In this document: in pieces, positions 25,443 through 62,022 of the stretch
Numbering within the stretch: the first letter of the stretch is position 1
How the letters are laid out: each line of letters begins with the position of its first letter
NCBI RefSeq assembly: GCF_030552475.1
Contig: NZ_JAUPED010000007.1
Span: 186,001 to 250,000, forward strand
Source: Mariniflexile sp. AS56
GTDB taxonomy: Bacteria > Bacteroidota > Bacteroidia > Flavobacteriales > Flavobacteriaceae
Reading direction: 5' to 3'
DNA: 64,000 nt
The notes under the pieces: model-generated
The model's input: only the letters and a program-made list of their open reading frames with translations
Told to the model about the DNA's origin: nothing
Database searches by the model: none
Made by a program: the position numbers and the translations under genes

Positions 25443-27656
25443 TTACAAGTTCTTATTTGGAGTTCTACCTAATACAAAATGAAGTGTACCTCCTTCTAAA
25501 ATTTGTTCATGAGTTATAGTGAATTTATTATAAGCCTTCCCGTTTAAAGTAATAGCCTGTACATAACAATTCTCTTCTGATTGATTTTCGGTAGTTATTA
25601 CAAACTGTTTCCCGTTTTCCAATTGAATAGTCGCTTCTTCAACAAAAGGAGATGTTAAACTATAAACACCATCAGCGGGATTTATGGGATACATTCCAAC
25701 AGATGAAAACACCAACCATGCCGACATTTGCCCACAATCTTCATTTCCACAATAGCCATCAGGTTTAGTGCTGTATTGCGTATTTATAATTCTACGTACC
25801 ATTTCTTGTGTTTTCCAAGGTTGCCCAACATTATTATATAAGTACGAAACATGGTGACTTGGTTCATTACCATGTGCATATTGGCCAATCATACCTGTGC
25901 TGAAAATGGGTAATTTATCTTCGGCGGTAGGGTAATATGTAAACATAGAATCTAACTTTGTGGTAAATTGTTGCTTTCCAAGAGTATTTATTAAGCCATC
26001 CATGTCTTGCGGTACAAACCAGAAATATTGCCATGCATTGCTTTCGCAAAATTCTCTGGTATATGCTTTTGCTGAAAATGAACTTTCAAACACACCCGCT
26101 TCACTTTTTGGGCGAAAGAAGGTCGATTTAGAATCGTATAAGTTTTTCCAATTATTGGCTCTTTTTGAAAATGTTTGTTGGATATCATTTTCACCTAAAG
26201 CTCCTGCCAATTGTGCAATACACCAATCGTTATACGCATATTCTAAGGTTTTTGAAACGGACCAACTTTCGCCTTCTTCAGATGTTGGTACGTAGCCTAA
26301 TTTCATATAAGTATCTATTTGTCTACCCTTTTCTGTTGCAGATGCTACACAAGCTTCTAAAGCCTTTTTAGCGTCCAAAGGAATGCCTTTAAAATAAGCA
26401 TCTACAATTACAGGAACCGCATGGTAGCCAATCATCATATTGGTTTCGTTTCCTGCTAACGACCATACGGGTAATAAGCCTGTTTCATCATAATGTGATA
26501 AAAACGACTTGATCATATCTCCAGTTTCTTTAGGTGCTAAAATAGTATACAATGGGTGAGTGGCTCTAAAAGTGTCCCAAAGTGAAAAGGTATCGTATTT
26601 ATTATAGCCTTCTGCTTTATGAACTACTCCATCGGCGCCTTTGTAATTTCCATCGACATCACTGTGTAACGAGGGTGTTAAAAAAACATGGTACAAATTG
26701 GTGTAAAACAATTCTTTTTGTGCCTTTGTACCTTTAATTTTAATTTTAGAAAGATAGGTTTCCCAGGTGTGTTCTGTATCTTGAACGGTTTGCTCAAAAT
26801 TCCAATGCGGTAATTCAGCCTTTAAATTTTTGCGTGCTCCTGCTATACTGGCTGATGATAATGCCACTTTTACTTGTATCTTATCTTGCTCCTGTGTTTT
26901 ATAATGGGCTACAATGCGCGTGAATTTCCCATTTATTATGGTAGTGTTTTTTTCTTCTGAATTTTCAAACAGTAGTGCCTTATCAAAAGGTTTTGAGAAT
27001 TTCATCACGAAATAGACACGCTGATCTGATGCCCAACCTTTAGATTTTCGATATCCCGAAATGGTTTGATCATCTTCTATGGTTATTTGAGTGTCTACAG
27101 GGGCATCCCAATTTAAACTATAGCCTAAATCAAGAATGATTTGGCTTTTTTCATCTTCTGGAAATGTATATTGATGAAACCCAACACGAGATGTCGTGGT
27201 TAATTCTGCTTTTATACCTGAACTTAACAAATCTACGGAGTAATATCCAGGGCTTGCTTTTTCACGATCGTGTGAGAATTTTGAGTAGGGGCGGTAACGA
27301 CCTTCAGGTGTTAGGCTTTCTGTAAACTTACTATTCAATGGCATCACCAATAAATCGTACATATCGCCTGCACCCGTGCCAGAAAGGTGTGTATGACTAA
27401 AACCAGCTATGGTAGAATCTGGGTAAAAATAACCCGCAATCCTATCCCAACCTGGTAATCCATTATCCGGACTTAATTGCACCATACCAAATGGTACAAC
27501 CGCACCTGGATAGGTGTTTCCTGGGCCATCGGTTCCGGTAAACGTATTCACATAACTGGTTAGTTTCTCTGTGGAGGCTACGTTTTTATCCGTTTTACTT
27601 TCTTTACAGGAAATAATCCCCAAACATACTAGTAATAAATAACTGTAATATTTCAT
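25443..27656 (-). CDS. GH92 alpha-mannosidase-family protein, lipoprotein (copy 1)
   Basis: A 737-residue exported enzyme with lipoprotein signal MKYYSYLLLVCLGIISC. The GH92 beta-sandwich is at about 32-290 (YVNTFTGTDGPGNTYPGA, GFSHTHLSGTGAGD) and the (alpha/alpha)6 domain follows to the end. Hallmarks are E404 in AGNETNMMIG, equivalent to the general acid of characterised exo-alpha-1,2-mannosidases, GNEPSHHVSYL near 596-606, and GNEDCGQMSAW (637-647) with the putative base aspartate. GH92 enzymes are Ca-dependent inverting exo-alpha-mannosidases used on N-glycans. It is the last gene of the array, followed by the terminator at 25334. Of the three GH92 proteins here it has the most canonical motifs; linkage specificity is not readable. 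Confidence 0.93.
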   Translation of the reverse strand: MKYYSYLLLVCLGIISCKESKTDKNVASTEKLTSYVNTFTGTDGPGNTYPGAVVPFGMVQLSPDNGLPGWDRIAGYFYPDSTIAGFSHTHLSGTGAGDMYDLLVMPLNSKFTESLTPEGRYRPYSKFSHDREKASPGYYSVDLLSSGIKAELTTTSRVGFHQYTFPEDEKSQIILDLGYSLNWDAPVDTQITIEDDQTISGYRKSKGWASDQRVYFVMKFSKPFDKALLFENSEEKNTTIINGKFTRIVAHYKTQEQDKIQVKVALSSASIAGARKNLKAELPHWNFEQTVQDTEHTWETYLSKIKIKGTKAQKELFYTNLYHVFLTPSLHSDVDGNYKGADGVVHKAEGYNKYDTFSLWDTFRATHPLYTILAPKETGDMIKSFLSHYDETGLLPVWSLAGNETNMMIGYHAVPVIVDAYFKGIPLDAKKALEACVASATEKGRQIDTYMKLGYVPTSEEGESWSVSKTLEYAYNDWCIAQLAGALGENDIQQTFSKRANNWKNLYDSKSTFFRPKSEAGVFESSFSAKAYTREFCESNAWQYFWFVPQDMDGLINTLGKQQFTTKLDSMFTYYPTAEDKLPIFSTGMIGQYAHGNEPSHHVSYLYNNVGQPWKTQEMVRRIINTQYSTKPDGYCGNEDCGQMSAWLVFSSVGMYPINPADGVYSLTSPFVEEATIQLENGKQFVITTENQSEENCYVQAITLNGKAYNKFTITHEQILEGGTLHFVLGRTPNKNL

Positions 27657-29321
27657 TTATTTCGTTCTTAATTTATTCACTTTAAGATCTGCATAATTTG
27701 CAATATGTCTTTTATAGTCTTGTGTATATAGCGTTGCAATGGTACTGTATTTTTCTGCAAGCTTGTTGTAGTCCTTCCAAGCCTTATCATAGGCCTTAAT
27801 CCACTTTTGAACTTCTTTAGTATCGCCTTTACTTACCGCATTATCCATATAGACAAGTGTTCTATATATATTATACAACTTCAAACCGTATTCCGATGAC
27901 CCTATAGCGTGACTTTTAGTTTCTTTATTTTGCCAATGAATTGATTTAGCCAACTTCACAATTTTTTTCCATTTTGTGATAGATTCATCTTTTTGATCTA
28001 AGTTTCTTTGATGCTCTAAATCACCTTTAACTACCATTGGCCAAGCAATTCCTTGGTCTCTGGTCCACCATGGATTCATATCTCTATACGTACTGTTTCT
28101 GCCTCTTACTACGGCTTCCGCAGAAAGCAAACATAATTTCCTGAATTTTGCAACGTCATCACCTTTTAAATGTAAACGCTCTGTGGCATATCTGTTAAAA
28201 ATAAACGCTTCACTCTTATCTATATTTTGTCCCCATTGTGCCACAACCCAAGAGTTTAAATCGCACCACAATTCGTCTTTTATATATGGGCCATCCCATC
28301 CACCACCACGAGACCATGTCCAAACACCTGCATATAATTCAGGCTTCGTATCAACAAACTCTTGAATACTGTTAATTTGATCTTCTGGCATCCTCGCATG
28401 CTCCTCAAAACCATCTATAACACCATTAGCAATATAATTAGGGTAAGCGCCTTTACCTTCGTATTCACGAGCAGATTGCACTTCAATAATTTGGCGGTGA
28501 CGCCCTTGACCAATGACTTTGCTAAACTCGTTTGATCTATGAAAATCACCTTCACAATGTTTGATACTTATAATTAAGTTGTCGTGTGGTTCTACCGCGT
28601 TACTTACTGCCAAATAATCATCCATATCTCTATCAAACGCTCCCCAAGTACGAAAAATAAGTTGTTTATCTCTTTTCTCGCAAATCTCTTCTTTTAAGAT
28701 ATTTATTAAAGGAATAATTGTTTTCTTCGGATTTGTTTTATCCTCAATAGCTCCCAGGTGATAGGGTGCATCGTGCAAATAGGTTTCACCAATACGAACT
28801 ACCAATCCATCCAAATCAGGAAACTGATCGAACATTTCATTAATTTGAGCACGAATTAATTTTTCGGTTAAAGCATCATTAGGATTACCAAAAGTTTTTT
28901 CAATATGGTATTTCTCAATCAATCTTTTAGGAAATAAAACAAGATCAGACATCGCATAAATAGCCATATCTTCAGCTTTACAAGCTGCATGCATTTGTTT
29001 TATTTGCGCTGCTTTTTCATCTACCCATTTACGATCTTCAGAACCTTTAGGCAAAATATCTGCATCAACGGATTCCCAGTTTATAGCTAATGCGGGCGAT
29101 TCAAAAAGAAAATACACTTTTCCATTATATCCCATTTCTTTAATAACCGCTGGGTTGTTGTATTTAGAATCATACGGAGTCTCACCTGGATTGTGATGTA
29201 CCATATCTAAAATTAAAGGCGCATTCTGGTTCTGACTTATCAGTTTTGCACCCATAATACTAAAAAAAACTAAAATGGATAGCACTAATTGATTACTTAA
29301 ATTTGATTTATTTATCTTCAT
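27657..29321 (-). CDS. Secreted protein of unassigned family, possible TIM-barrel glycoside hydrolase
   Basis: A 554-residue protein with an N-terminal hydrophobic signal (about 10-29). I cannot assign a family. Features suggest a (beta/alpha)8 hydrolase: LVVRIGETYLHDAPYHLG (173-190) with acidic E179, LIFRTWGAFDRDMDD (221-235), IIEVQSAREYEGKGAYPNYI (278-297) with E280 and E286, and VWTWSRGGGWDGPY (333-346). The layout recalls GH67/GH115-type uronidases and GH20 barrels only loosely. Its stop codon abuts GH92 copy 1, and it follows a GH20 gene after 10 bp, so it shares the locus. The position among exo-enzymes makes a debranching glycosidase plausible, which is inference. Confidence 0.6.
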   Translation of the reverse strand: MKINKSNLSNQLVLSILVFFSIMGAKLISQNQNAPLILDMVHHNPGETPYDSKYNNPAVIKEMGYNGKVYFLFESPALAINWESVDADILPKGSEDRKWVDEKAAQIKQMHAACKAEDMAIYAMSDLVLFPKRLIEKYHIEKTFGNPNDALTEKLIRAQINEMFDQFPDLDGLVVRIGETYLHDAPYHLGAIEDKTNPKKTIIPLINILKEEICEKRDKQLIFRTWGAFDRDMDDYLAVSNAVEPHDNLIISIKHCEGDFHRSNEFSKVIGQGRHRQIIEVQSAREYEGKGAYPNYIANGVIDGFEEHARMPEDQINSIQEFVDTKPELYAGVWTWSRGGGWDGPYIKDELWCDLNSWVVAQWGQNIDKSEAFIFNRYATERLHLKGDDVAKFRKLCLLSAEAVVRGRNSTYRDMNPWWTRDQGIAWPMVVKGDLEHQRNLDQKDESITKWKKIVKLAKSIHWQNKETKSHAIGSSEYGLKLYNIYRTLVYMDNAVSKGDTKEVQKWIKAYDKAWKDYNKLAEKYSTIATLYTQDYKRHIANYADLKVNKLRTK

Positions 29322-29331: not shown

Positions 29332-31635
29332 TTAAAAACGTGTAACCGAACCACTCATTGGGGTTAACTCTTCACCTTGTATGGCATACTTAACTTCTAT
29401 GACTCTTGGTTTATCGCTTGGTCTGTATTTAATGGTTATAGGGTGCCATCCTTGTTTTAAAGCTGCTTTTCCATAACTCTTTCTAGGTCCGTGCCATCCA
29501 CTATTATCAACTATCACTTCATCACCAATAAATAATAAATCTCCACCATCAGAACGTGTTTCAAATTCATAAATGGCGTCTTTATTAGCCTTAAAATAAC
29601 CTTGGTAAATGATTGAGAAATTCTTTTCATCTTTAAAATCTCCCAATGCAATTGTATCTACTTTAGTAAAGTTAGATGTGGAGGGCGTTTTAAGATCTTC
29701 TACCTTTTTAAATTTCCCTTTGATAATCCACCTTTTTAAGCCTGTTTCTACTGGATTCACTTCTATAGGGGTTATATAGTTTTTTTGAATAACCTTGGTT
29801 GTTTTTAGGTCGTTAAATTTTTCGCCACGATAGGCACGGGCTTTAATAGTAATGGTGTCGTTTACTAGAAAAGGAGCTTCATATTTTATAGTTTCTTTTG
29901 TTGGAATACTGCCGTCTAAAGAATAATAAATATCTACACCCTCAAGTGGATAAGCTAATTTTAAAGAGACTTCGGTATTATCAACAAAAGCGATGTCTTT
30001 TTGAAGACCTTCTACCGCAGGGATGTAATAATACACATCAAGAACATCTAATCGGTCATACTGTTTTTCTACTCTTTTATTGAATGATTCAAAATCGCGT
30101 TCTTGATCGACCCATGCATTTTCTGCAACGGCTAACATTCTAGGAAACGCTTGATATTGCAAACGCTTAAAACTAGGAATCCATTCAGACCATAAATTGG
30201 CTTGAATTCCTAAAACGTGTTCAGCTTCTGCATCTGTGAAATCTTCGGGAATAGGTTCATAATTGTAAACACCTTCTAGAGTGTTTCCTTCGTTTAAGTA
30301 ATCGAAATAATATGCAGCTGTTGTAGTCACTACAATATCATTTCCATTGGCTGCGGCTTTTTTTGGTGCATCTGGTGCCCAGTTTCTCCACCACATAACG
30401 TTGGCTTCTTTGGTTAATCCACCTCTTACAATTTCATCCCAACCCATAAATTGTTTCCCTTTAGATTGTAAAAATTGTTCGATGTCTCTATTGAAATGCG
30501 ATTGTAATTCGTGTTCGTCTTTAAGATTATGCTCTTTGATGGCTTTTTGACAATGTGGGCATTTTTCCCAAGATTTTATGTTGACTTCATCACCTCCAAT
30601 ATGAACGTACTTAGCAGGAAATAATTCCACAACTTCACTCAGTACATTTTTCATAAAATCATAGGTTGTTTCTTTTCCTAAACAAGTTGGGTAAGTAAAA
30701 ACAGTATCCCAACCTGATTCTTCATTACAAGATAGAAAAGGATAATTATCTATTGCCGATTTAAAATGACCTGGCATATCTATTTCAGGAATCACAGTGA
30801 TGCATCTAGCATCGGCATACGATACAATTTCTTTAATTTGATCTTGGGTGAAAAAGCCACCATATTTACGTTCGCCATCAATGGTCTTAAAGTTAGATTC
30901 GTCTATAGTATAAAGCTTATTTTCTTTTGCTCTATCCATACAAATGGTGTCTTGATTGTTTGGTGTTCTCCAAGCTCCTTTTTCTGTTAATAAAGGGTAT
31001 TTCTTTATTTCAATACGCCAACCTTGGTCATCGGTTAAATGCATATGATAGGTATTTAACTTGAACAGAGCCATGTAATCTAAAAAGTCTTTTACCTCAT
31101 TTATATTAAAAAAATGACGACTAAAATCCATATGCATGCCGCGCCACTCAAAACGAGGCGCATCTTCCACCATGGCACATGGTACAAACCAATCGGTATT
31201 TGTTTTTTCTTTACTCTCAATTTCATTTGGCAATAACTGGCGAATGGTTTGAACGGCATTAAAAAAACCACGTTCTTCTGAAGCTTTTATGTTAATTGAT
31301 GTTGGGTTTATATCTAATTTATAAGCACCTTCTTTTAAACCTTCCACGGTTTCAAAAACAACTGCATCATCAAGCTTTGTATTTGAAACTTGTAAATTGT
31401 AACCTGCTGCATTTTTAAATAAACCTATTAAATAATTTGCTGCTTTTTGATGACTCTCATCATTAAGTATAATTTTTGTACTAGATTCAAACTGAAATGA
31501 ACTTTCTTTTAATTGAAAACTCAAGGGTTTAGGTAGTAATGAGATTTGCTCTTGTTTAAAAGTAGGTTTTGTTTGCGAGCATGACACCAAAAGCAATGTT
31601 ACTAATAGAAATGTAATATGTTTTTTCATAATCAT
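29332..31635 (-). CDS. GH20 beta-N-acetylhexosaminidase with PA14-like C-terminal domain, lipoprotein
   Basis: A 767-residue exported enzyme; MIMKKHITFLLVTLLLVSC is a lipoprotein signal. The GH20b domain is at about 30-160, and the catalytic barrel at about 163-520 contains FEWRGMHMDFSRHFF, HLTDDQGWRIEIKKYP and the catalytic pair D349-E350 in VHIGGDE. A chitobiase-type Fn3-like segment (about 555-640) and a PA14-like domain (about 645-755, with YEFETRSDGGDLLFIGDE) follow. GH20 enzymes remove terminal beta-GlcNAc or beta-GalNAc by substrate-assisted catalysis; the Asp orients the acetamido group. It overlaps the next gene's stop by 4 bp. The PA14-like module, absent in the second GH20 here, may bind glycan. 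Confidence 0.94.
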   Translation of the reverse strand: MIMKKHITFLLVTLLLVSCSQTKPTFKQEQISLLPKPLSFQLKESSFQFESSTKIILNDESHQKAANYLIGLFKNAAGYNLQVSNTKLDDAVVFETVEGLKEGAYKLDINPTSINIKASEERGFFNAVQTIRQLLPNEIESKEKTNTDWFVPCAMVEDAPRFEWRGMHMDFSRHFFNINEVKDFLDYMALFKLNTYHMHLTDDQGWRIEIKKYPLLTEKGAWRTPNNQDTICMDRAKENKLYTIDESNFKTIDGERKYGGFFTQDQIKEIVSYADARCITVIPEIDMPGHFKSAIDNYPFLSCNEESGWDTVFTYPTCLGKETTYDFMKNVLSEVVELFPAKYVHIGGDEVNIKSWEKCPHCQKAIKEHNLKDEHELQSHFNRDIEQFLQSKGKQFMGWDEIVRGGLTKEANVMWWRNWAPDAPKKAAANGNDIVVTTTAAYYFDYLNEGNTLEGVYNYEPIPEDFTDAEAEHVLGIQANLWSEWIPSFKRLQYQAFPRMLAVAENAWVDQERDFESFNKRVEKQYDRLDVLDVYYYIPAVEGLQKDIAFVDNTEVSLKLAYPLEGVDIYYSLDGSIPTKETIKYEAPFLVNDTITIKARAYRGEKFNDLKTTKVIQKNYITPIEVNPVETGLKRWIIKGKFKKVEDLKTPSTSNFTKVDTIALGDFKDEKNFSIIYQGYFKANKDAIYEFETRSDGGDLLFIGDEVIVDNSGWHGPRKSYGKAALKQGWHPITIKYRPSDKPRVIEVKYAIQGEELTPMSGSVTRF

Positions 31636-33740
31636 CTTTTTATATTCTTTTTCATGTTTTCTTCAACAGCTTTATCAAAAGCTATTGTTATAGATTCGGT
31701 TAGTTTTGCTTTTTTAATCCAATCACCATCACCGTAAATCCCTGATTTTGTATAATCGAATGGTTTAAAGTTTATTTTTTTGAAATTTGCTTTCCGCTCA
31801 AATTTGAAATCGAAATTTGAAGCATCCTTAAAATAAGGATCCCCTATGATACTATTATTATCATGTCCCAATTGTTGCCAAACTTTAAATGTTTTACCAT
31901 TGAAATTGTAAGTGCCAAGACTCGTATTCCAATACAAATTAGTATCCATTTTAGCTATAACCTTGTCCCAAGCGCCTTTTAGCAACATGCCTTCTTTAAA
32001 AATAACAATATTATTTGTAAAAGTGAATGATGTGTGTGCCTCTGCTATGGTACACTGCATCTGATACTTTTTAGCAAAGGCCAAAATGTTATTCTGTATT
32101 AGATTTTCCTTACCATAATTTTGTTGAAATCCCCCCGTTTTGGTATTGTATACTACATTGTTTTTAAAAACAATTCCTGTAGAACCTTCATCGGCATACA
32201 TACCCCAACCTCCGTAGGAATACGCATGAATATCATGAATCACATTATTTTCAATACGGGTTCCTTCAGATTCTCCAAGCGTATAAATACCAGCCATGTC
32301 GCTTAACAAATCCCATCCTATGTGATGAATATGGTTATAAGCTATAGTATTTCGTTTTGCAAGACTTGGTGCATACCCCCAAACCCAACCCACAGAGATA
32401 CCTGTGTAATAGAAATTACCAATATCATTATGGGTTACTTTATTATCTGAACTATGCCCAACCCATATTCCTACTGCAGCAGGAAACTCTTTGCCACCAG
32501 ACTGTATAATATTGTTATGAATATTTATATTGTGAGTATGTTCTTTGCCTTCTAAAGCCTTAAAATCTCCCAAATAAATACCACCACCTCCCAAATTGTG
32601 CAAATAGGTGTTTTCTACAAAAGCATTACTACAACCTTTACCAAACCACAAGGCATGCTGTCCTGTCTTTGAAATTTCACAATGAGAAAATGTTATATTT
32701 TTTGCTCCTTCTAAATAAATAGCTGCATTTAATTTTGCCGCTGCTTGGTTGGGTTCTGAACCCGATTTCGGGATTTCGTAATGACAATACTCAAAACCTA
32801 AACCTTCAAAACGAATGTATTCTACATATTTATTTTGAATAGCACTTCCTTTTATACTTATTAATTGTTGCAATACGGGGGCTATTACCGTACTGTTATC
32901 TGGAGATTCATTGGGTTGTGGTACATAGTACAAAATTCCCTTTTGATTTAAAAACCATTCACCAGGGGTATCTAAAGCTCCTTTATAATTTTCAAAAACA
33001 ATGCGTCCACCTTTCTTTATTTCGTTCCAAGGTTTCATACCTTTTCCTGATGTTGTAATTGATAAACTATCAGTATCAATAGCATCGATGTGCCTTAAGG
33101 TGTAATCCCATTTGTGATAGGCTTTGAACCTTACTTCTTCAATTTCATCCTTGGTGATATCTACTAAAGCCGCGAACATATTTTTATCAAAAAATAATTT
33201 TTGTTGTGCCTTTGGAGCGACCTTACCAGGGCCTTTTTCCCAGATGTGTTGTTGCACAGAATCTATTTCCAAAAAACCACTATTAGGTGTTCGAGCTAAA
33301 ACGGCTCTTTTACCATTTACATATAATTGATCAAATTGCCATTTGTAATAAGCGCTTTCTGGAATTTTAACTTCCCAAACACCTTTTTCATTGACTGAAA
33401 ATCCAGTAATTATTTTTCCGCCACTAAAAGTTGGTTTGGCATTTTTAGCGGCTTTATAGGTGATGGGGGAATTTTTGGTCCCACCATCTTCTGGAAATAA
33501 TTCCAAAGGTTCTTTCATCGTATAATAACCTTCCTCTACAATTACCGTATAAGCATGTTGTTTTTTTGATAAGGTTTTATGCTGGCGTATGGCATCGCGA
33601 GCAGCCGTTAATGTTGCTAAAGGAGCTTCTTTTGTTCCTGGGTTTATATCATTCCCTATGGGCGAAACATGAAAATACTGTTGTGCATTTAACGATAAAC
33701 TACAACAAAAAAGCAAGCTTAATATATAAATAACCCTCAT
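31632..33740 (-). CDS. Secreted right-handed beta-helix protein, GH141-like
   Basis: A 702-residue protein; the start at 33740 gives the signal peptide MRVIYILSLLFCCSLSLNAQ. An upstream ATG at 33785 adds 15 charged residues and overlaps the previous gene. YFHVSPIGNDINPGTKEAPL then TLTAARDAIR is the typical opening of GH141 and related beta-helix enzymes, followed by pectate-lyase-like coils with repeated N-N-x-I and H-N-x-I turns (about 330-590). The founding GH141 member is an alpha-L-fucosidase from a rhamnogalacturonan II locus; others act on xylan. With four GH29/GH95 genes nearby a fucosidase role fits, but the family also contains unrelated activities. It overlaps the GH20 gene by 4 bp. 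Confidence 0.7.
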   Translation of the reverse strand: MRVIYILSLLFCCSLSLNAQQYFHVSPIGNDINPGTKEAPLATLTAARDAIRQHKTLSKKQHAYTVIVEEGYYTMKEPLELFPEDGGTKNSPITYKAAKNAKPTFSGGKIITGFSVNEKGVWEVKIPESAYYKWQFDQLYVNGKRAVLARTPNSGFLEIDSVQQHIWEKGPGKVAPKAQQKLFFDKNMFAALVDITKDEIEEVRFKAYHKWDYTLRHIDAIDTDSLSITTSGKGMKPWNEIKKGGRIVFENYKGALDTPGEWFLNQKGILYYVPQPNESPDNSTVIAPVLQQLISIKGSAIQNKYVEYIRFEGLGFEYCHYEIPKSGSEPNQAAAKLNAAIYLEGAKNITFSHCEISKTGQHALWFGKGCSNAFVENTYLHNLGGGGIYLGDFKALEGKEHTHNINIHNNIIQSGGKEFPAAVGIWVGHSSDNKVTHNDIGNFYYTGISVGWVWGYAPSLAKRNTIAYNHIHHIGWDLLSDMAGIYTLGESEGTRIENNVIHDIHAYSYGGWGMYADEGSTGIVFKNNVVYNTKTGGFQQNYGKENLIQNNILAFAKKYQMQCTIAEAHTSFTFTNNIVIFKEGMLLKGAWDKVIAKMDTNLYWNTSLGTYNFNGKTFKVWQQLGHDNNSIIGDPYFKDASNFDFKFERKANFKKINFKPFDYTKSGIYGDGDWIKKAKLTESITIAFDKAVEENMKKNIKR

Positions 33741-33769
33741 CAATATTTTTATTCTTTTAGAACCTTTAA

Positions 33770-36238
33770 TTAGTTGTCCTGCCATTCAATCTCGCCATTT
33801 TCCAGACTCCAATCATTTCCAAAATAACCAGTTGCTTTAATACTTTCTATACCGTTTTGGTAAATAGTAGGGGTGAAGATCATCATATCTGGGATATCGG
33901 TTCCAGATCCAAAATACTTGTTGGGAACCATGGCTTTAAAGCCTTCAATACCGGTTCCAGATATGGCCGCAACCGATGCTGTTTTGCTGTCTTTCCTTGG
34001 ATAAATTAAATACGTACCGTAGTTATTTCCTTTTAAAATTTTATGACCAACTTTAACTTCATCACGTTTAACTTGAACAGGGCTTTCTGATAATAGTAAT
34101 TTCCATGCAGCATTAGTGGTAGCGTTACCATACAGAATAACAGACCTGTCTTTAAATTTTTTAAGTGAAAATTCTTTATCTGAAATAATATCTATAGAAC
34201 CATTCCCTCTGTAATAAAAGGTTTCAGCATCAAAGCGCACTTTGTTAATAGCCCATTGGTTTTCTTCTTGAGTTCCCTTAGTTCCATACACAAACACCAT
34301 GTTATTTTTAAAAGCATCTTTAAAATTACCATAGCGTAGCGGATTTTTTTCAAAGCTACTTGTTGGTTTTTCAGTTAAAACCCATGTATTATTTTCTTTT
34401 TCAAACCATAATTCATCTTTTTTATAAGATGCTATGTTGTTAAAAGAAACACTATCAACCATCACTTCAATGGTATCAGATGCCATAGTGTGTTTTATAT
34501 CTAGCTTAAACTTTTTTAAATTTTCAGTTTCAATAGAAATGTGTCGCTTTCTTAAAATGACGTCGTTTTTTATTTGTTTTTCATTACGTACATTTTGAGT
34601 GACTTTAACACCCGAAAATTCAAATAGTTTTTCTTGTTGATATAAGGTTATATATCTACTTTCTGAGGAAACACCGGGACTTGCTGTTCTAAATTCAAAT
34701 GTTTTTACATCATCATTATTAGGAATGGTATGCCATTTAAAGTAATCGAATATCGAGCTGAAATCAATACCAAACCAATGTTTTTTATCTTCATACTCAA
34801 GGTAAGCAAAATCAGGATGAAATTCTGCTAGATGTTTACGCATAAAACGGGCTTGGTCTACAGGTACTACATCATCGGCATCACCATGTTGTATGTACAC
34901 ACCTTGTTGAAGGTAATTTCTAGACAATTCCAATGTATGACTTGCATGGTTGGCTCGAACAAACATATTTTCTAGAGCTGTTGGGTTTTCCAAGGCCTCT
35001 TTATTGGCATAAGAAAACAAAGAATACCACCCAGACATAGGTACAATAGCAGCCCATTTGCTAGGAAACGTGGCGCCTACATGCCAAGTACCATGACCAC
35101 CCATAGAATGTCCTGTTAAATAGGTTCGGTTGGGGTCTGTACCATACATGTTTTCTGCAAGTTCTTGAACTTCCATGGCGTCCCAACGGCCCCAATCTTC
35201 CCAATTAAAACCATAATCTCTTCTGTTTGTTGGTGCAATCACGTGTCCCCAATCTTTAGCTTTATATTGAACCGCCTGATTTTTGGCTTCTACATTGGCT
35301 CCATGTAATGAAAGAAACATGGCTGGTTTATCTCCTGGTTTTATAAGGCCTTCTTTCACAGAAAAATATTGAACGCTCCCATCTATTTTAGAAATGAATG
35401 TTCTGGTATAACGTTCTTCAGGTGTTCTTACATGATACAAAACAGACGTTTCATCTATAAGTTTTAATCCTTCAAATAATTTAATTTTCACTCTTACTGT
35501 ATCTTTTTTAGAATAAGCGTCTTTTACCAAATAGGGCACTTTTCGCATAGACAATGGAATGATGGTCGATACGTTTGTTTCTAGTGTTTCACCGTTTGCT
35601 TCAGATACAAGTCTGAGGTTTCTTAATGTTTTCGAGGTTGAATTTAATATTCTGATGGATCCTGTTTTTGTATCATTTTCAGTGGTTAAAAAATCAGGAT
35701 TCGTCATATCTCTCTCTAATAAAGCGATTGGTTTTTCAATAGATAATAATTGCATAAACACTTCACCACGACCTCCTTTTACTAAGAAGGTATTCTTACC
35801 TTTTAGTAATTCTACGGGGTGAAACGTAAGGTGTTTATTATACACATCGCCACCACGGGGAATACCATTTACAAATACTTCATTATGACCAGAAATTTCT
35901 AAAATTTTAATTTCTGATATGAGTGAATTATAAGTGACATACAAATAACCACCCCTTAATTTTCTGGTTTTAAAAACACCTTTTTCATTTACTGTTAATG
36001 GCTCCCAACGCTCCACTTCACCTTGTCTGCCAATGCCAACAGAATCGGTTTCAATAGGTTCATAGTCCTTTTTTGTAATGAGATTATAAAAAACGGGATC
36101 GGTATAAATAATGGACCGGTTTCCCTTACTAGTTGATCCTGTTACCAATCCGTTTTTTAAAGCAATCGTGTCTTGGGCGTTAAGGGAACTGCTTATAAAA
36201 AAAACAAGGAGAATAAATTTTAATGTGAATTTGGTCAT
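33770..36238 (-). CDS. Secreted alpha/beta-hydrolase (esterase or prolyl-oligopeptidase-like)
   Basis: An 822-residue protein with signal peptide MTKFTLKFILLVFFISSSLN ending in AQ. The N-terminal ~280 residues are beta-rich and contain VFVNGIPRGGDVYNKHLTFH, as in carbohydrate-binding jelly-roll folds. The hydrolase core (about 300-525) has nucleophile S378 in TGHSMGGHGTWH, an Asp in HGDADDVVP and a His in EDKKHWFGI. A further ~290 residues follow and are unassigned. The S9/DLH-type core is found in PUL acetyl or feruloyl esterases as well as peptidases. In this context removal of acyl groups from the glycan, or trimming of glycopeptides, is possible; neither can be decided from sequence. Confidence 0.75.
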   Translation of the reverse strand: MTKFTLKFILLVFFISSSLNAQDTIALKNGLVTGSTSKGNRSIIYTDPVFYNLITKKDYEPIETDSVGIGRQGEVERWEPLTVNEKGVFKTRKLRGGYLYVTYNSLISEIKILEISGHNEVFVNGIPRGGDVYNKHLTFHPVELLKGKNTFLVKGGRGEVFMQLLSIEKPIALLERDMTNPDFLTTENDTKTGSIRILNSTSKTLRNLRLVSEANGETLETNVSTIIPLSMRKVPYLVKDAYSKKDTVRVKIKLFEGLKLIDETSVLYHVRTPEERYTRTFISKIDGSVQYFSVKEGLIKPGDKPAMFLSLHGANVEAKNQAVQYKAKDWGHVIAPTNRRDYGFNWEDWGRWDAMEVQELAENMYGTDPNRTYLTGHSMGGHGTWHVGATFPSKWAAIVPMSGWYSLFSYANKEALENPTALENMFVRANHASHTLELSRNYLQQGVYIQHGDADDVVPVDQARFMRKHLAEFHPDFAYLEYEDKKHWFGIDFSSIFDYFKWHTIPNNDDVKTFEFRTASPGVSSESRYITLYQQEKLFEFSGVKVTQNVRNEKQIKNDVILRKRHISIETENLKKFKLDIKHTMASDTIEVMVDSVSFNNIASYKKDELWFEKENNTWVLTEKPTSSFEKNPLRYGNFKDAFKNNMVFVYGTKGTQEENQWAINKVRFDAETFYYRGNGSIDIISDKEFSLKKFKDRSVILYGNATTNAAWKLLLSESPVQVKRDEVKVGHKILKGNNYGTYLIYPRKDSKTASVAAISGTGIEGFKAMVPNKYFGSGTDIPDMMIFTPTIYQNGIESIKATGYFGNDWSLENGEIEWQDN

Positions 36239-36251: not shown

Positions 36252-37553
36252 CTATTTGATTTTAAGTTTTATAATTTCATCTATTTCATTTAAAGAATTA
36301 CTATCTACGTAAATAAATGTACCTTCTTTTAATTGCTTGAATTTGATTTTTGTTTTACCATCGAATGATGTCGCCGAAGATATTTTTTCTTTAAATTCAG
36401 GAATGAAAATATAAGGATCGTGGGTTGGGTTTAAAATATGAACGTACAATGTTTTATCTTTTTTGGTAATAGTTCCCCAATCTTGAGTTTGTATAACATC
36501 GCCTCTAGTGCCGTAAATACTTTCACCATATTTAGAAGTCCATTCGCCCATTTCCTTTAAAGTATTTACAAACTCTGGTTGTATTTCTCCATTGGGCATT
36601 GGCCCTACATTCAATAATAAATTACCGTTTTTACCAGCTGCTTTTACTAAAAAATGTATCAGTTGTTTTGTAGATTTAAACTTGTTGTCATAAATACTAT
36701 AGCCCCATTTACTTGCCATAGTGGCACAAGATTCTAAAGGTAATTGACTTACGTGAACACCATCACTAAAACCACCATGGTTTTCTCCTGGTAAATCACG
36801 CTCAAACGTTTGTATATCATCACCTGGTATGGGTTGTATGTGGTGATTGTTTGCAATTAAAGTACTTGGACTTAACTCATGTATTAAAGAGTATATTTCG
36901 TCATATTTCCAGTTTGCTTCTTTTCGATCCCAATGTCCGTCAAACCAAATCATACCTATTTCTCCATAATTGGTAAGCAATTCTGTAAGTTGGGCTTTCA
37001 TAAAATCTACATATTTATTCCAAGCTTCTTCATCTCCTTTTTTACCATCTTTGTAATCATCACGTTTCCAGTCTAGTAAAGAATAGTAGAAATTTAATTT
37101 AATTCCTTCTTTTTTACATGCTGCGGCCAGTTCCTTTAAGGGATCTTTTCCGTAAGGGGTAGCATCTACTATATTGAAGTCACTCGCATCAGTATCAAAC
37201 ATACTAAAACTGTCGTGGTGACGCGATGTAATGGTTATGTATTTCATCCCTGCAGATTTTGCAATTTTAACCCATTCTTCCGCATTAAAATCTTGTGGAT
37301 TAAAAAAGTCTGCCAAACGTTCATAGTTATCTGCTTTAATCTTTTTCAATAACATCACCCATTCACCATCGGCCAAAACGCTGTAAACCCCCCAATGGAT
37401 AAACATACCGAATTTCATGTCTTGAAACTCTTTACGCGCATCTAAGTTATTTTGAGTAGGTGTATACTCTGGCATAGGGAATTGGTACTGTTTTTGTGCA
37501 TTACTTGTAAATGCAAGTAGGCCTAATAGGCAAATAATAGCGATCTTCTTCAT
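36252..37553 (-). CDS. GH29 alpha-L-fucosidase (copy 1)
   Basis: A 433-residue secreted enzyme with signal peptide MKKIAIICLLGLLAFTSNAQ. The GH29 barrel shows KFGMFIHWGVYSVLADGEW (47-65), ITSRHHDSFSMFD (108-120) and the nucleophile D205 in MIWFDGHWD. GNLLLNVGPMPNGEIQPEF marks the end of the barrel and a C-terminal beta-sandwich follows. GH29 enzymes are retaining exo-alpha-L-fucosidases; subfamily A or B cannot be set by eye. It is 13 bp from the alpha/beta-hydrolase gene and 20 bp from GH92 copy 2. Confidence 0.93.
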   Translation of the reverse strand: MKKIAIICLLGLLAFTSNAQKQYQFPMPEYTPTQNNLDARKEFQDMKFGMFIHWGVYSVLADGEWVMLLKKIKADNYERLADFFNPQDFNAEEWVKIAKSAGMKYITITSRHHDSFSMFDTDASDFNIVDATPYGKDPLKELAAACKKEGIKLNFYYSLLDWKRDDYKDGKKGDEEAWNKYVDFMKAQLTELLTNYGEIGMIWFDGHWDRKEANWKYDEIYSLIHELSPSTLIANNHHIQPIPGDDIQTFERDLPGENHGGFSDGVHVSQLPLESCATMASKWGYSIYDNKFKSTKQLIHFLVKAAGKNGNLLLNVGPMPNGEIQPEFVNTLKEMGEWTSKYGESIYGTRGDVIQTQDWGTITKKDKTLYVHILNPTHDPYIFIPEFKEKISSATSFDGKTKIKFKQLKEGTFIYVDSNSLNEIDEIIKLKIK

Positions 37554-37573: not shown

Positions 37574-39907
37574 TTAATTTATTACGGGTTGCGGTCCCAT
37601 TTCCATTTCTAAAATACCTCCTTGAGTTATTTCTTTATGTGTTATCCAAAAGCGATTTAATGATTTCCCGTTTAACTTTATGGATTGTATATAAATGTTT
37701 TCTTCTGAATTATTTTTAGCAATTATTTTAAAGGTTTTTCCTGAGTAATAATTTTGGTCTAATTTTATTTCAATTTCATTGAAAACAGGACTCGTTATTT
37801 GATATTTATTATCCCCAGGATTTATAGGGTGAATACCAATAGATGCTAACACATACCAGGCGGACAATTGCCCAACATCTTCATTACCGCATAATCCGTA
37901 AGCATCGGTACCATAGGCTTTACTACAAATTTTACGTGTTATTTTTTGGGTTAAATGTGGTGCACCTGCTTCGTTTAACATAAAAGGAACGTGGTGTACC
38001 GGTTCATTGGCGTGATTGTAATAATTGTTCCAAAGGAAATGATCTGGAGTGTTTTCAAAGAAAGCAATCAATTCGTTTTTAAAAGCTTCTTCGCCACCCA
38101 TTAAAGTTTTTAGCCCCTCAATATCGTGAGGTACAAACCAACCTTGTTGGTAGGGGTTACTTTCTATGCATCCTTGACCGTGCACTGTTTTTCCTTTCCA
38201 TTCCAACCAAACTCCGGTGCTGTCTTTGGCTCTAAACCAATTCACTTCATCGTTCCAAATATTCTTGTAATTTTTGCTTTTTTTGAAATATGCTGTAGCG
38301 ATGTTATTTTTTCCTAAGGATTTTGCAAAGGTTGCCAATGCCCAATCGGAATAGGCATACTCCAAAGTTTTAGATATATGTTTATGGGAATAACCTAATT
38401 CACCATTTCCAGTATTATCTACGGTGTTTTTAGAATACTTAAACGCTTTCTCTATATCGTAATTTCGAATGCCTTTTTGGTAGGCATCATTAATAACTGA
38501 AACAGCAGGGTTACCTAACATAACGCCGGAATAAGAGTTTAGCATTTCCCAACGCGGTAAGTATTCTTTGCCACTTAACTCAGCGATTTGTAAAAGGGAG
38601 TTAATCTCATCATTTACCAAGGTTGGATTGATAATGGTTTGTAAAGGAAATTGAGATCGAAACACATCCCAACCACTAAAAATAGTTCGGTAGGTGAAAT
38701 TTTTGGTTTGATGCACTTTTTTATCAGCTCCTATGTAATTTCCATTGACGTCTGAAAAAGCACGTGGATCTATTAAAGTATGATATAATGATGTGTAAAA
38801 AATAGTTTTATCTCTATCTGTAGCGCCTTCAACCGATATGTTGTCAATAGCTTTACTCCAGCTATCACGAGCTTCCTGTTTTGTTTTATCGAAATTCCAA
38901 TGGTTAATATCGTGTTCTAAATTCTCTTTAGCTCCAGCAATACTTACAAATGAAATGCCACTTTTAACCAACACTTCTTCGTCTACTTTGGTACTAAAAT
39001 TGGTGTAAAAACCTAAATGCTTGCCTTGCATCTCCGTTTTACCTTCAAAGATTTCAGCATTTTTAATTGAATCTTGATAGTTATCTCTTCTAATAAAACG
39101 CATTTTTCTAGGCACGTCCGGAATATCGGCACTCCAAATACCATAATCTTTTAACGGCTTGCTAAATTCACAATAGAAATACACCACGTAATCGGCATTT
39201 CCTGCACCAGCGCCCCAGCCACCACCTTCGGGAGGACATTTCATCCAACCTTGTATGGTGTTTTCGTTTACTACTTTTATGTATTGTTCTGTTGAAGTTC
39301 CACCAACACGACGCGCTAAATCAATTTGAACGCGCGAACTATCAGATTCAGGATAGGTAAAACGAATAATACCTGCTCTTGGTGCCGAAGTTAATTCTGC
39401 TTTCACATTATAATCATCTAAAGTTACAGCATAATATCCTGCCTCTGTAGTTTCAGTATCATGAGAATATCGAGAACGGTAACCGCTTTCTGGATTTTCG
39501 GCAACACCCCGATTAGTTTGTAGTTTTCCTGTTGTAGGTGTTACTAAAAAGTTGCCTAAATCGCCAAACCAACCCACGCCACTCATGTGTGTAAAACTGA
39601 AACCTTCCATGGTTGGGTGTTCATAAGAATACCCAGAACCATTATCACCATCAGAAACCGTATCCGGACTTAATTGCACCAAGCCAAATGGCGTTGCAGT
39701 ACCCGGAAATGTTTTACCAAAACCATGAGCATCTTTAGATTTTTCACCATAAGTAATAGCACCAATTATAGGGTCTATATAATCTACGGGCTGCTTTTGG
39801 GTTGTTTTGGTTTCTTTTTCAGATTTTGAAGATTTACAAGAACCCGCCACAAGAACCGTTAATGCTAGACAGAAATAAAATGATATGTTTCTTTTTGTTC
39901 TACTCAT
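37574..39907 (-). CDS. GH92-family protein with altered acid position, lipoprotein (copy 2)
   Basis: A 777-residue exported protein with lipoprotein signal MSRTKRNISFYFCLALTVLV then AGSC. GH92 motifs are clear: GKTFPGTATPFGLVQLSPDT, GFSFTHMSGVGWFGDLG, NHANEPVHHVPFML and GNEDVGQLSAW. At the position of the general-acid glutamate (E404 in copy 1, E419 in copy 3) it has Y459, in WEMLNSYSGVMLGNP. In GH92, substitution at this position is known in the mannose-1-phosphate uncapping enzymes, where Gln replaces Glu. Copy 2 may therefore cleave a different linkage, or act on a substrate not needing acid catalysis. It sits between GH29 copy 1 and a sulfatase gene. Confidence 0.9.
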   Translation of the reverse strand: MSRTKRNISFYFCLALTVLVAGSCKSSKSEKETKTTQKQPVDYIDPIIGAITYGEKSKDAHGFGKTFPGTATPFGLVQLSPDTVSDGDNGSGYSYEHPTMEGFSFTHMSGVGWFGDLGNFLVTPTTGKLQTNRGVAENPESGYRSRYSHDTETTEAGYYAVTLDDYNVKAELTSAPRAGIIRFTYPESDSSRVQIDLARRVGGTSTEQYIKVVNENTIQGWMKCPPEGGGWGAGAGNADYVVYFYCEFSKPLKDYGIWSADIPDVPRKMRFIRRDNYQDSIKNAEIFEGKTEMQGKHLGFYTNFSTKVDEEVLVKSGISFVSIAGAKENLEHDINHWNFDKTKQEARDSWSKAIDNISVEGATDRDKTIFYTSLYHTLIDPRAFSDVNGNYIGADKKVHQTKNFTYRTIFSGWDVFRSQFPLQTIINPTLVNDEINSLLQIAELSGKEYLPRWEMLNSYSGVMLGNPAVSVINDAYQKGIRNYDIEKAFKYSKNTVDNTGNGELGYSHKHISKTLEYAYSDWALATFAKSLGKNNIATAYFKKSKNYKNIWNDEVNWFRAKDSTGVWLEWKGKTVHGQGCIESNPYQQGWFVPHDIEGLKTLMGGEEAFKNELIAFFENTPDHFLWNNYYNHANEPVHHVPFMLNEAGAPHLTQKITRKICSKAYGTDAYGLCGNEDVGQLSAWYVLASIGIHPINPGDNKYQITSPVFNEIEIKLDQNYYSGKTFKIIAKNNSEENIYIQSIKLNGKSLNRFWITHKEITQGGILEMEMGPQPVIN

Positions 39908-39929: not shown

Positions 39930-41417
39930 TTAGTGCGCTGCTGTGTTTTGTGCGCTTTCTGTTTTGAAAATATCTACGGGTACATCATTTTCTTGTGATT
40001 TTCCAGTGGTTGTTCTACCGTTTTCAACAATACGTTTTAATTTTTTTGTCAATTTGGCAACAACTCTAGGATGCTTCTTATAAACATTAGTCGTTTCTTC
40101 AGCATCGGTTTTCATGTTATACAATTGAATTTCTGGTAGGTTTTCTGCTTTAGCTTTATTATCATTTGGATTAGACCAACCACCAGAACCAGGTGTTAAT
40201 TCCAATTTCCATTTTTTATTCCTAATAGAAAATTTACCATGTATAGAATGATGAACCACTAAATTATAATCCGTTTTTGCCTTTTTGTTTTTCAGCATTG
40301 GTAGAATACTATACGAATCTACACCAGCATTATCATCCACATTTAAACCTGCAATTTCAGCACAAGTCGCCATTAAACTCGTTTGGCAAATAAGCTTATC
40401 GTTTATAGAGTTAGCCTCAATATGTTCTGGCCATCTTACCATAAAAGGAATGCGGTGTCCGCCTTCCCAAATATCAGATTTGTAACCTCTAAAATCAGCA
40501 CTTGGGTAATGTCCGAATTCATTTTCTAACTTACCAACTTTTGCAACAGGGTAGGAGCAACCATTATCACTTGTGAAAAACACCAAAGTATTATCCTCAA
40601 TGCCATTTGCTTTTAAGGCTTCAAGCACACGACCAACAACATCATCCGTTTCCATAACAAAATCGGCATAAGCGCCCATACCACTTTTTCCTTGCCAAGC
40701 TTTTGATGGTACCACAGGACTATGCGGTGAGTTTAATGCCAAATACATAAAAAATGGCGTATCGTTTTTAGATTCCTTAGCGATATAATCTTCGGCATGA
40801 TCACCTAAAAATTGTAACATTTTCACAGGTTCCATTGTATCAACAACCTTATCGTCTTTTATAACCGTTTTCATAACTCTAGAGTGGTGAAAGCCAATAT
40901 AAGAGTCAAAACCACGAGAAACTGGTCCGTTTGGTACCGTAGAACCAATCGCTGGGCCAATTACTTTTTTACCATCGTAAACTTCAACAGGATTTCCTTC
41001 GTCGTCAACAAACTTAAACCCAAGATGCCATTTACCAATAGCTGCGGTTTTGTAACCTGCCTCTTTAAGCATTTTCGGAACCGTCATTTGGTCTTCTGCT
41101 ATTAAAGGTTCTAATTCTTCACCTCCAGCTAAAACACCTTGTTGCAGTCTAGAACGCCATGAATAACGTCCTGTTAAAATAGCGTATCGGGATGGCGTAC
41201 ATACTGAAGAAGCAGAGTGCGCATCGGTAAACGTCATAGATTCTTTCGAAAAGGCATCTATTTTAGGAGTAAGTATTTTTCCTTTTTCAGGATTTAAAAC
41301 TTGTACATCGCCATAGCCTAAATCGTCACAAATGATGTAAACAATATTTGGTTTTTTTTGAGCTGAAGCTGAAGCAACAACGAACATAAAAAGAGCTACT
41401 AATTTTGATAGTTTCAT
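39930..41417 (-). CDS. S1-family sulfatase, Cys type (copy 1)
   Basis: A 495-residue secreted sulfatase with signal peptide MKLSKLVALFMFVVASASAQ. PNIVYIICDDLGYGD supplies the N-terminal metal aspartates. The formylglycine motif is C73-T-P-S-R with YAILTG following; VVPSKAW and FTSDNGC lie in the expected places. The cysteine must be converted to formylglycine by FGE or an anaerobic maturase, neither of which is in the window. Resemblance is to arylsulfatase A/GalNAc- or Gal-6-sulfatase-like S1 members (YSWRSRLQQGVL), not more precise. It is preceded by the widest gap of the array (91 bp), so a promoter for the distal half could lie there. Confidence 0.93.
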   Translation of the reverse strand: MKLSKLVALFMFVVASASAQKKPNIVYIICDDLGYGDVQVLNPEKGKILTPKIDAFSKESMTFTDAHSASSVCTPSRYAILTGRYSWRSRLQQGVLAGGEELEPLIAEDQMTVPKMLKEAGYKTAAIGKWHLGFKFVDDEGNPVEVYDGKKVIGPAIGSTVPNGPVSRGFDSYIGFHHSRVMKTVIKDDKVVDTMEPVKMLQFLGDHAEDYIAKESKNDTPFFMYLALNSPHSPVVPSKAWQGKSGMGAYADFVMETDDVVGRVLEALKANGIEDNTLVFFTSDNGCSYPVAKVGKLENEFGHYPSADFRGYKSDIWEGGHRIPFMVRWPEHIEANSINDKLICQTSLMATCAEIAGLNVDDNAGVDSYSILPMLKNKKAKTDYNLVVHHSIHGKFSIRNKKWKLELTPGSGGWSNPNDNKAKAENLPEIQLYNMKTDAEETTNVYKKHPRVVAKLTKKLKRIVENGRTTTGKSQENDVPVDIFKTESAQNTAAH

Positions 41418-43401: not shown

Positions 43402-43409
43402 GTGTTATT

Positions 43410-44840
43410 CTAATTTAAACTTACAGCAAGCGTGTTAAAAGATTTTCCGTCTAGAGTTACTTTTACAATCTCGTTATTGATGTTTAATGCTAATTCTTGT
43501 GCTTCCGAAGTATTGTTGTAAGCCAAAACAGTTACCTCATTATTCGCTTTGTTATAAAAGGCAAGTGCGTTATTAGTATCTCCAGAGGCCGCTAATTTTA
43601 CCGAACCTGGCGCTACAAAAGCACTTAAATGTTTCATTAAATAAAACTCAGGATTGTATTTTATAGCTTTAGTTTTGCTATCAATAGAAATCATAGAATT
43701 TTGTTTCCATCCCCATTGGCTTTTTCCTGTTTCATCTAAAACCATATTCCAATACATGTATGAGTTGGCACCGTTTTCAAAGTAATGCTTCATTAAGTTG
43801 AAGGTGTATTCTGCCGCTTTCCAATCGTTAGAACCGTCACCACATTCTGTTTCAGTTTGCATTAATTGCATGTCTGGATATTTAGCATGTACAGCTTCAA
43901 TAGCGCCTTTTCCTGCCCATTGAAAACCAACACCTGTAACATAATCTTCAGTGTTTTTGTATTGTAAAATAGCATCTACACGTTCTATTTGCGGACGCTC
44001 AACAGTACCTAACCAGATATCTGTATCTAAATTTTCAGCTTTAAGTTTCGGACCTAAATAGTCGGCTATAAAAATGCCTAAATCTTGAGGTTTCCAAACG
44101 CATGATGGAAAGTTTTGAGCCGAATTTGGTTCGTTTTGAACATGAACAGCGCTAATTTCAATACCTTCATTATCATAAGCTTTTATGAATTTTGAAAAGT
44201 ATAAAGCGTAAGATTCTAAATATTCTGGTTCCATAATGAAACGAGACACTAATTCTTCCGTAGAACTCCATTCCTCTGGTAAATCGTTAAATTCAGGATT
44301 AGATTTACAAGCGTAATGTTTGCTATGTTTCATCCAAGATGGCGGACACCAAGGTGAAGCCCAAACTTCTATGTCCGGATTTATTTTTTGTGCTTCCTTA
44401 ATGTATGGAATTAAACGTTTTTTATCACGATCGATAGAGAAGTTCGACATTGCGAAATCTTCCGCAGTTTCGTTATGGCTATACCAATCTACAGCATAAT
44501 CATTAGCGCCAATAGGCATTCTACAAACGTTGAATTTACAACCCGTTTCCTGACTAAATAAATCGTTTAAAATTTGTTGTTTTTCTTCTGGAGTTACCAT
44601 AGCTAAAGCATCCCAACCTAATTCGTTGAAACAGCCGCCAAAACCTGTAACTTCTTGTTCTTGGTTTTGTGTATCAATAGTAATGGATAGGTTAGTAGCT
44701 GTGCTTTCCGTAGAAGGATTGTAGATTTTTTCAACCCAAACATGATCATTAGTACTGCTTACCCAAGTTACTTGAGGTTGATTTTTACAAGCTGAAAAAG
44801 CGACTAAAAGGGTTAAAGCTGAATATTTAAAAACGTTCAT
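43410..44840 (-). CDS. GH30-family glycosidase, lipoprotein
   Basis: A 476-residue exported enzyme with lipoprotein signal MNVFKYSALTLLVAFSAC. Motifs of the glucosylceramidase-like GH30 branch are present: VTGFGGCFNELGWDAL (64-79), WASPWCPPSWMK (160-171), acid/base E237 in HVQNEPNS, and the nucleophile region LMQTETECGDG with E330 as best candidate. A small beta-sandwich follows from about 400. GH30 includes beta-glucosidases, beta-xylosidases and beta-1,6-glucanases. In an N-glycan setting a core beta-xylosidase role would fit, but the sequence does not show it. It lies 6 bp from the GH3 gene, probably acting with it. Confidence 0.9.
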   Translation of the reverse strand: MNVFKYSALTLLVAFSACKNQPQVTWVSSTNDHVWVEKIYNPSTESTATNLSITIDTQNQEQEVTGFGGCFNELGWDALAMVTPEEKQQILNDLFSQETGCKFNVCRMPIGANDYAVDWYSHNETAEDFAMSNFSIDRDKKRLIPYIKEAQKINPDIEVWASPWCPPSWMKHSKHYACKSNPEFNDLPEEWSSTEELVSRFIMEPEYLESYALYFSKFIKAYDNEGIEISAVHVQNEPNSAQNFPSCVWKPQDLGIFIADYLGPKLKAENLDTDIWLGTVERPQIERVDAILQYKNTEDYVTGVGFQWAGKGAIEAVHAKYPDMQLMQTETECGDGSNDWKAAEYTFNLMKHYFENGANSYMYWNMVLDETGKSQWGWKQNSMISIDSKTKAIKYNPEFYLMKHLSAFVAPGSVKLAASGDTNNALAFYNKANNEVTVLAYNNTSEAQELALNINNEIVKVTLDGKSFNTLAVSLN

Positions 44841-44846
44841 AATGTT

Positions 44847-47528: not shown

Positions 47529-47541
47529 ACTGCTATTGTTT

Positions 47542-48912: not shown

Positions 48913-48920
48913 ATTCTAAA

Positions 48921-51224: not shown

Positions 51225-51265
51225 AATTGTTTTATTTAGTCTATCTACAGTGTTTACTTTATAAA

Positions 51266-52876: not shown

Positions 52877-52881
52877 ATTTA

Positions 52882-56070: not shown

Positions 56071-56075
56071 CTTTA

Positions 56076-57116: not shown

Positions 57117-57129
57117 ATATAATTTCATT

Positions 57130-62019: not shown

Positions 62020-62022
62020 ATT

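Follow-up and report, generated by a model that had tools for sequence, protein, structure and literature searches.

The window, that is, the whole analysed stretch of 64,000 nucleotides from Mariniflexile sp. AS56, harbors a run of 22 genes on a single strand (25443-63982), most of them sugar-degrading, which includes the gene of the protein considered here, P0001. The run comprises three GH92, two GH20, and three GH29 genes, one each of GH95, GH30, and GH3, a GH141-like gene, and five sulfatase genes, accompanied by genes for S9/esterase, Asparaginase_2, GHL10, and CBM9-like proteins. They are arranged as follows, with the basis of each assignment given last:

25443..27656, minus strand: GH92 (α-mannosidase family), directly downstream of P0001; Pfam
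27657..29321, minus strand: GH67-like P0001, 554 aa; open reading frame, alignments, and model
29332..31635, minus strand: GH20 (β-hexosaminidase family), directly upstream of P0001; Pfam
31632..33785, minus strand: right-handed β-helix protein, GH141-like; Pfam GH141_M at 23.7 bits, below the cut-off of 27
33770..36238, minus strand: S9/esterase-type hydrolase; Pfam
36252..37553, minus strand: GH29 (α-fucosidase family); Pfam
37574..39907, minus strand: GH92; Pfam
39930..41417, minus strand: sulfatase; Pfam
41509..63982, minus strand: remainder of the run (GH20, GH30, GH3, sulfatase, GH95, sulfatase, GH29, sulfatase, GH29, sulfatase, GH92, Asparaginase_2, GHL10, CBM9-like); Pfam

The P0001 gene directly adjoins that of GH92, and 10 bases separate it from the GH20 gene. 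A scan for promoters and terminators gave no excess over shuffled sequences, and an operon is therefore argued from gene order alone.

The open reading frame of P0001 fills the whole interval 27657-29321 on the minus strand with 554 codons, while the plus strand of the same interval is interrupted by many stops. A first-pass annotation, made from the sequence alone, had described a 554-residue protein here with two conserved-looking acidic motifs and a tryptophan/glycine loop, and this protein proved to be real and encoded on the minus strand; the quoted sequences RIGETYLHDAPYH, EVQSAREYEG, and TWSRGGGWDGPY correspond to residues 176-188, 280-289, and 335-346, respectively. Its placement between GH92 and GH20 was borne out by strong Pfam matches of both flanking genes. 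The protein had also been called exported, with which its hydrophobic, signal-peptide-like N-terminus of ~29 residues, as judged by eye, agrees, and P0001 is thus predicted to be probably secreted.

The same annotation could not place the protein in a family, which holds for P0001 taken alone, as it falls below every Pfam and NCBIfam cut-off; the profile of its relatives, in contrast, places it near GH67. The nearest Pfam match is GH67M (PF07488), with 16.5 bits against a cut-off of 23.5, besides which two chance-level Pfam matches were obtained. The search of the single sequence against NCBIfam returned one chance-level match and none above the cut-off, and that against the PDB sequences returned nothing useful. 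Neither GH67N nor GH67C matched P0001 at E <= 1, and a true GH67 protein (L034), serving as positive control, was matched by GH67N, GH67M, and GH67C. A paralogue in the same genome, 76% identical to P0001, reaches 24.4-25.6 bits against GH67M and the relative L020 reaches 23.0 bits (cut-off 23.5), and 22 of 27 aligned members match this model at E <= 0.1, the best at 1.8e-6. The 20 members of a wider alignment (A4) matched 0 NCBIfam families at E <= 0.001.

Relatives of P0001 are encoded at 31 loci in the searched genome contigs, with best segments 46-88% identical, and since a second copy also exists in the window's own genome, the family is not a product of chance. It is real, and neither Pfam nor NCBIfam has a name for it. 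In the literature search, no GH67-like or GH67-related wording, and no title or abstract start describing this family, was found among the matches listed. The hosts are marine Flavobacteriaceae, Ancylomarina, Pontiellaceae, and records titled Verrucomicrobiota, Kiritimatiellota, and Lentisphaeria, together with two water-deer gut MAGs and one Prevotellaceae MAG, whose proteins are 46-47% identical to P0001. A profile search across 395 genomes sampled from the window's phylum retrieved the family in two, one of them the window's own. The gene also occurs in Formosa algae (L026) and Flavobacterium algicola (L004), both of which are described as fucoidan degraders in an excerpt of PMC12786026.

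The window protein, its paralogue, and the proteins of 25 loci out of the 31, all at least 46% identical to P0001, were aligned as a set of 27 members; 25 loci are likewise represented in alignment A2 and in the tree, from which L008, L011, L014, L022, L026, and L028 were left out. Thirteen positions (126, 176, 179, 184, 224, 254, 257, 259, 262, 280, 286, 336, and 342) are identical in 27/27 aligned members.

Several more distant or unusual relatives were observed. Three remote ones in Pontiellaceae and a Verrucomicrobiota MAG (L056:1150-2856, L057:838-2553, and L058:1201-2910; 20-22% identity) keep RIGE/RMGE-, FRTW-, SDFFR-, and REYEG-type motifs and show no obvious signal peptide at the start, and they may possibly constitute a cytoplasmic sister family. 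A side branch of 34-36% identity (L055:1426-3114, minus strand, and L062:8001-9650, plus strand) keeps E179, D259, and E280 and has alanine in place of E286, so that a different base or specificity is perhaps to be expected there. In the gut-type Bacteroidales MAGs (L029, L030, and L031), the domain is located inside open frames of 1612-2372 aa, one of which (L030:502-5328, plus strand) combines it with DUF5013 repeats and has a GH36 gene nearby.

The link to GH67 emerged after the profile had been widened with more distant members (20-36% identity), which came from other genomes searched and from a Persicobacter plasmid. When the resulting 20-member profile was compared with 177,635 PDB sequences, GH67 α-glucuronidases were the only matches at E <= 10, comprising five sequences with E values of 1.6e-4 to 1.3e-3. 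The hhalign comparison of the wide family with three true GH67s gave a probability of 97.4% (E 1e-11, 321 columns), against 1.3% for two window GH20s (E 0.04, 66 columns) and 3.1% for GH29 (E 0.014, 83 columns) as controls. Among 1107 ORFs, a 19-row profile ranked all five GH67s first behind the family (E 6.9e-12 to 2.2e-4), the next ORF standing at E 1.1, while a 13-row core profile retrieved the three remote relatives at the top, then four of the five GH67s (4.1e-7, 3.4e-4, 0.0072, and 0.17), and the fifth at E 2.0, behind one unrelated ORF at 0.98. The narrow 27-member profile gave chance matches only against the PDB sequences, and the narrow alignment reached a probability of 10.6% (E 0.0029) against GH67 in hhalign; the link is therefore significant only when the relatives of 20-36% identity are added. 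Identity between P0001 and GH67 amounts to 11-14% for the solved structures in the VIA comparison and to 18-20% in hhalign. Judged by these profiles, P0001 is a distant homologue of GH67, and it is assigned to an unnamed branch beside that family because it lacks the N-terminal domain of GH67 and shares no more than 11-20% identity with it. The earlier view of a protein without assignable family kin is thus not supported as it stood, in view of the sequence profiles, the predicted fold, and the paralogue that just passes the GH67M cut-off.

The AlphaFold model of P0001 (mean pLDDT 84.5, pTM 0.86) exhibits eight barrel strands in a predicted (β/α)8 fold. A glycoside hydrolase whose active site lies in a barrel, as the first-pass annotation had envisaged, is very likely. 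That annotation had proposed a structure search against GH67, GH115, GH20, and GH84, in which the barrel was recovered and GH67 came out closest by both Foldseek and VIA. Foldseek against the PDB ranked GH67 best (from E 9.1e-12), followed by GH138 (from 3.6e-11) and then GH84 (from 4.7e-9). The top VIA match was GH67 1mqr (Z 21.7, 411 residues, rmsd 4.0), with GH138 6hzg at Z 19.3 (463 residues, rmsd 4.2), the unrelated barrel 8qk1 at 18.5, GH20C and GH84 at 18.2 and less, and GH115 4c90 at 17.2. The VIA margin is modest, the GH67 range being 19.3-21.7 against 17.2-18.5 for GH20/GH84-type barrels, and the GH67 claim is therefore carried by the sequence evidence.

Three other families were also considered. 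For GH20, a high VIA Z is common to many barrels and the hhalign comparison with the window GH20s was negative; its catalytic model PF00728 did not match P0001 at E <= 1, and the two GH20 neighbours in the window matched it strongly. For GH84, which was compared through profile search and fold only, the VIA Z of 17-18 is at a level common to many such barrels, and the 20-member profile found no GH84 chain in the PDB at E <= 10. For GH115 (BoAgu115A, 4c90), the VIA Z of 17.2 is not above the level of the GH20/GH84 barrels. An excerpt of PMC3879575 states that GH115 and GH67 share a core fold and that the active-site residues of GH115 do not match those of GH67; the active site of GH115 is thus unlike GH67 by that description, whereas the residues of P0001 match GH67.

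The solved GH67 enzymes, Cellvibrio GlcA67A (1gqi/1h41) and Geobacillus AguA (1mqq/1mqr), resemble P0001 in the barrel fold, in the helical region after the barrel, and in the R, K, D, E, E, and W at matching positions. They differ from it in length (about 680-720 aa vs 554 aa), in domain content, as P0001 has no GH67N or GH67C match and its barrel begins at about residue 36, and in setting, namely xylan for GH67 and a marine sulfated-fucose context for P0001.

The residue register was set by the mutants in the PDB entries 1h41 (E292A) and 1mqr (E386Q), which correspond to E313 and E409 of the GH67 protein L034. In the combined alignment, R224, K254, D259, F260, E280, and W342 are identical in all GH67 and family rows shown, and so is E286, except for alanine in the remote members L055 and L062. 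R224, K254, D259, and E286 are equivalent to R325, K360, D365, and E393 of the Cellvibrio enzyme, R176 aligns with a GH67 lysine (Cellvibrio K288), and E280 and E286 are equivalent to E386 and E392 of the Geobacillus enzyme. D259 and E286, aligned with GH67 D365/E393, are both kept in 27/27 close members; E179, D259, E280, and E286 together are identical in 27/27, and E179, D259, and E280, as well as R176, R224, and K254, are kept in all 20 members of A4. E179 is situated in the same loop as the acid of GH67 (E292/E285, after strand 4), 1-2 columns off in three alignments, and residues 180-184 of the model have pLDDT < 50. In the predicted structure, residues 126, 176-179, 224, 254-259, 280-286, and 336 are placed at or just past the C-terminal ends of the strands, the usual site of the active center in such barrels.

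We take Cellvibrio D365/E393 to be the catalytic base pair of GH67, and K288/R325/K360 are presumably its carboxylate-binding residues. By alignment, E179, D259, E280, and E286 are candidate catalytic residues of P0001, and R176, R224, and K254 are candidate carboxylate-binding residues. E179 and E280/E286 had already been suggested as mutation targets; the latter pair coincides with GH67 E386/E392 of Geobacillus, while E179 falls in the correct loop yet out of register by one or two columns. The catalytic acid of GH67 is described as residing on a mobile loop in an excerpt of PMC3879575. A GH67-like mode of working is likely for P0001.

The gene order around the relatives was sorted into two marine contexts, labelled here A and B; the counts cover fetched loci, mostly with 10 kb on each side, for 29 of the 31 loci (L024 and L025, on short contigs, were dropped). 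Context A, to which the window belongs by gene order, includes 14 loci, with a homologue of the window-type GH20 upstream in 14/14 and GH92, GH29, S9, and GH141-like genes in most, though not in every locus. Context B includes nine loci and the paralogue of the window's genome, with GH95 in 8/9 and GH31 in 6/9, and in six loci no ORF of at least 250 aa separates GH95 from the GH67-like gene. Fucosidase genes were found at 19/29 loci and sulfatase genes at 20/29, each against 3/14 control stretches, and FdlA-like genes at 6/9 B loci, 0/14 A loci, and 1/14 control stretches, where the 14 controls are a small, non-random set drawn from the two contigs that carry the gene copies, and loci that are related do not count independently.

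The paralogue locus (G000:C23:208000-239999; L059, L061) contains two successive genes whose best PDB match is the fucoidan lyase FdlA (1.3e-35 and 3.6e-53), one gene matching heparinase II/III-like lyases (3e-40), and another matching Uly1040 (1.2e-36), for all of which no Pfam match was found at E <= 0.001. GH95, GH31, an SGNH/CE2-type esterase, and DUF2961 are also present there, with sulfatases further on. It looks like a locus for uronic-acid-containing fucoidan. In a tree with 30 rows, all 11 of the A rows sampled group in a single clade (SH-aLRT 98) that lies within the B rows, although this tree was built quickly, carries no bootstrap values, and brings together the long branches of gut and remote rows. 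This nesting would fit one move of the gene from a fucoidan-type locus into locus A.

Taken together, P0001 is proposed, with moderate confidence, to work in the periplasm as an exo-acting α-uronidase of the unnamed branch of the GH67 superfamily, with α-glucuronidase as the likeliest activity and a sulfated fucose-containing algal glycan as the probable target. In the proposed mechanism, the protein would be exported to the periplasm, where E179, after strand 4, would protonate the glycosidic oxygen, and D259 with E286 (possibly E280) would activate a water molecule, leading to a single inverting displacement. The carboxylate of the sugar would be held by R176, R224, and K254. The sugar removed would probably be an α-linked glucuronic acid branch, the loss of which would clear the way for the neighbouring fucosidases, mannosidases, and sulfatases. 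The open reading frame, the barrel model, the homology to GH67, the conserved residues, and the gene neighbourhood are observed here, and export, catalysis, inversion, the uronic acid, and the glycan are inferred from them.

With regard to the substrate, the GlcA of the glycan cut by FdlA is joined to mannose by a β-linkage, and the FdlA-like genes therefore point to a uronic-acid glycan rather than to the α-GlcA bond. As described in excerpts, FdlA cleaves sulfated fucoglucuronomannan, a GlcA-containing fucoidan (PMC9410043), and α-D-GlcA branches occur on some fucoidans (PMC10673560). Among the findings that count against the proposed reading are the absence of FdlA-like genes from all 14 context A loci and the GH36-type genes next to the gut relatives, where the marine enzymes are lacking, as well as the shifted register of E179 with the poorly modelled residues 180-184, the alanine in place of E286 in L055 and L062, the weak results of the narrow alignment, and the modest VIA margin. 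For the window locus, an acidic N-glycan or mannan is also a possible substrate. Excerpts report that GH92-rich PULs might target N-glycosylated glycoproteins (PMC6298971) and that a sulfated mannan PUL contains GH92 and sulfatases (PMC13063451); since both are common to the window, a sulfated mannan or a glycoprotein is possible there. According to an excerpt of the arabinogalactan paper PMC11036162, the GH67 described there shares its PUL with GH10 and GH43.

The glycone might nevertheless be another one. A GH67-superfamily hydrolase could act on a galacturonate-like α-uronide, as in GH138, or on a sulfated sugar whose sulfate would be held by R176, R224, and K254, which we regard as unlikely. 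GH138 (BP0997, 6hzg), a rhamnogalacturonan II enzyme, is an α-galacturonidase and thus acts on a uronic acid; it is the second-best fold match, sulfatases are common nearby (20/29 loci), and the gut relatives adjoin GH36-type genes. The resemblance is, however, one of fold only, with 10-12% identity in VIA, and its Z of 19.3 is within 1 of the unrelated barrel 8qk1, whereas the family profile finds GH67 and no GH138 sequence in the PDB at E <= 10. Likewise, P0001 might be an outlying GH67 already filed in CAZy, or its family might already be numbered, so that nothing new would be at hand. This is a serious though rather doubtful alternative, which would be in keeping with the paralogue above the GH67M cut-off and with the 22/27 members that match this model; P0001 itself stays below the cut-off (16.5), lacks GH67N and GH67C matches at E <= 1 where a true GH67 has all three domains, and is only 11-14% identical to the solved GH67s. 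A non-catalytic glycan-binding or decayed barrel protein, finally, is highly improbable, as the loss of E286 in the two remote members L055 and L062, which would suit it, stands against E179, D259, E280, and E286 in 27/27 close members and E179, D259, and E280 in 20/20 of the wider set.

If the α-glucuronidase reading is extended to the whole family, a new GH family beside GH67 may be tentatively put forward, a conjecture that we hold with slightly more doubt than conviction. It would embrace α-glucuronidases without the GH67 N-terminal domain, which strip α-GlcA branches from sulfated fucose-containing algal glycans, and which would have arisen in fucoidan-lyase loci and entered a mannose/GlcNAc/fucose glycan locus in a single recruitment. 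The degradation of sulfated, fucose-rich algal glycans is difficult, and some of its steps are without a known enzyme; the main text of a 2025 review of fucoidan-degrading enzymes contains 0 occurrences of glucuronidase, glucuron-, GH67, or GH115 (PMC11943901). If true, the removal of α-GlcA branches would fill a missing step and supply a tool for sequencing such glycans, and the GH67 superfamily would be extended past xylan.

Some further features of the window were recorded. An Asparaginase_2 protein (61006-62019, minus strand) lies inside the sugar locus, and if it is of the glycosylasparaginase type, N-glycans would be part of the substrate of the window locus. Two overlapping ORFs in different frames (23994-24653 and 24578-25096, plus strand) together resemble a single Fic-type gene that a frameshift has broken in two, either a true break or an assembly error, and HPFEDGNGRIGR, seen in this pair (23994-25096), is presumably the Fic motif. 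At 4635-13496 on the plus strand, a SNF2/helicase-C protein, another ORF, an N6_N4 methylase, and a ResIII/RE_endonuc protein follow in a row, which by their domains is a type III restriction-modification-like locus. Near these restriction-like genes, a 689-aa protein with an N-terminal TIR domain (14397-16466, minus strand) is a possible defence gene.
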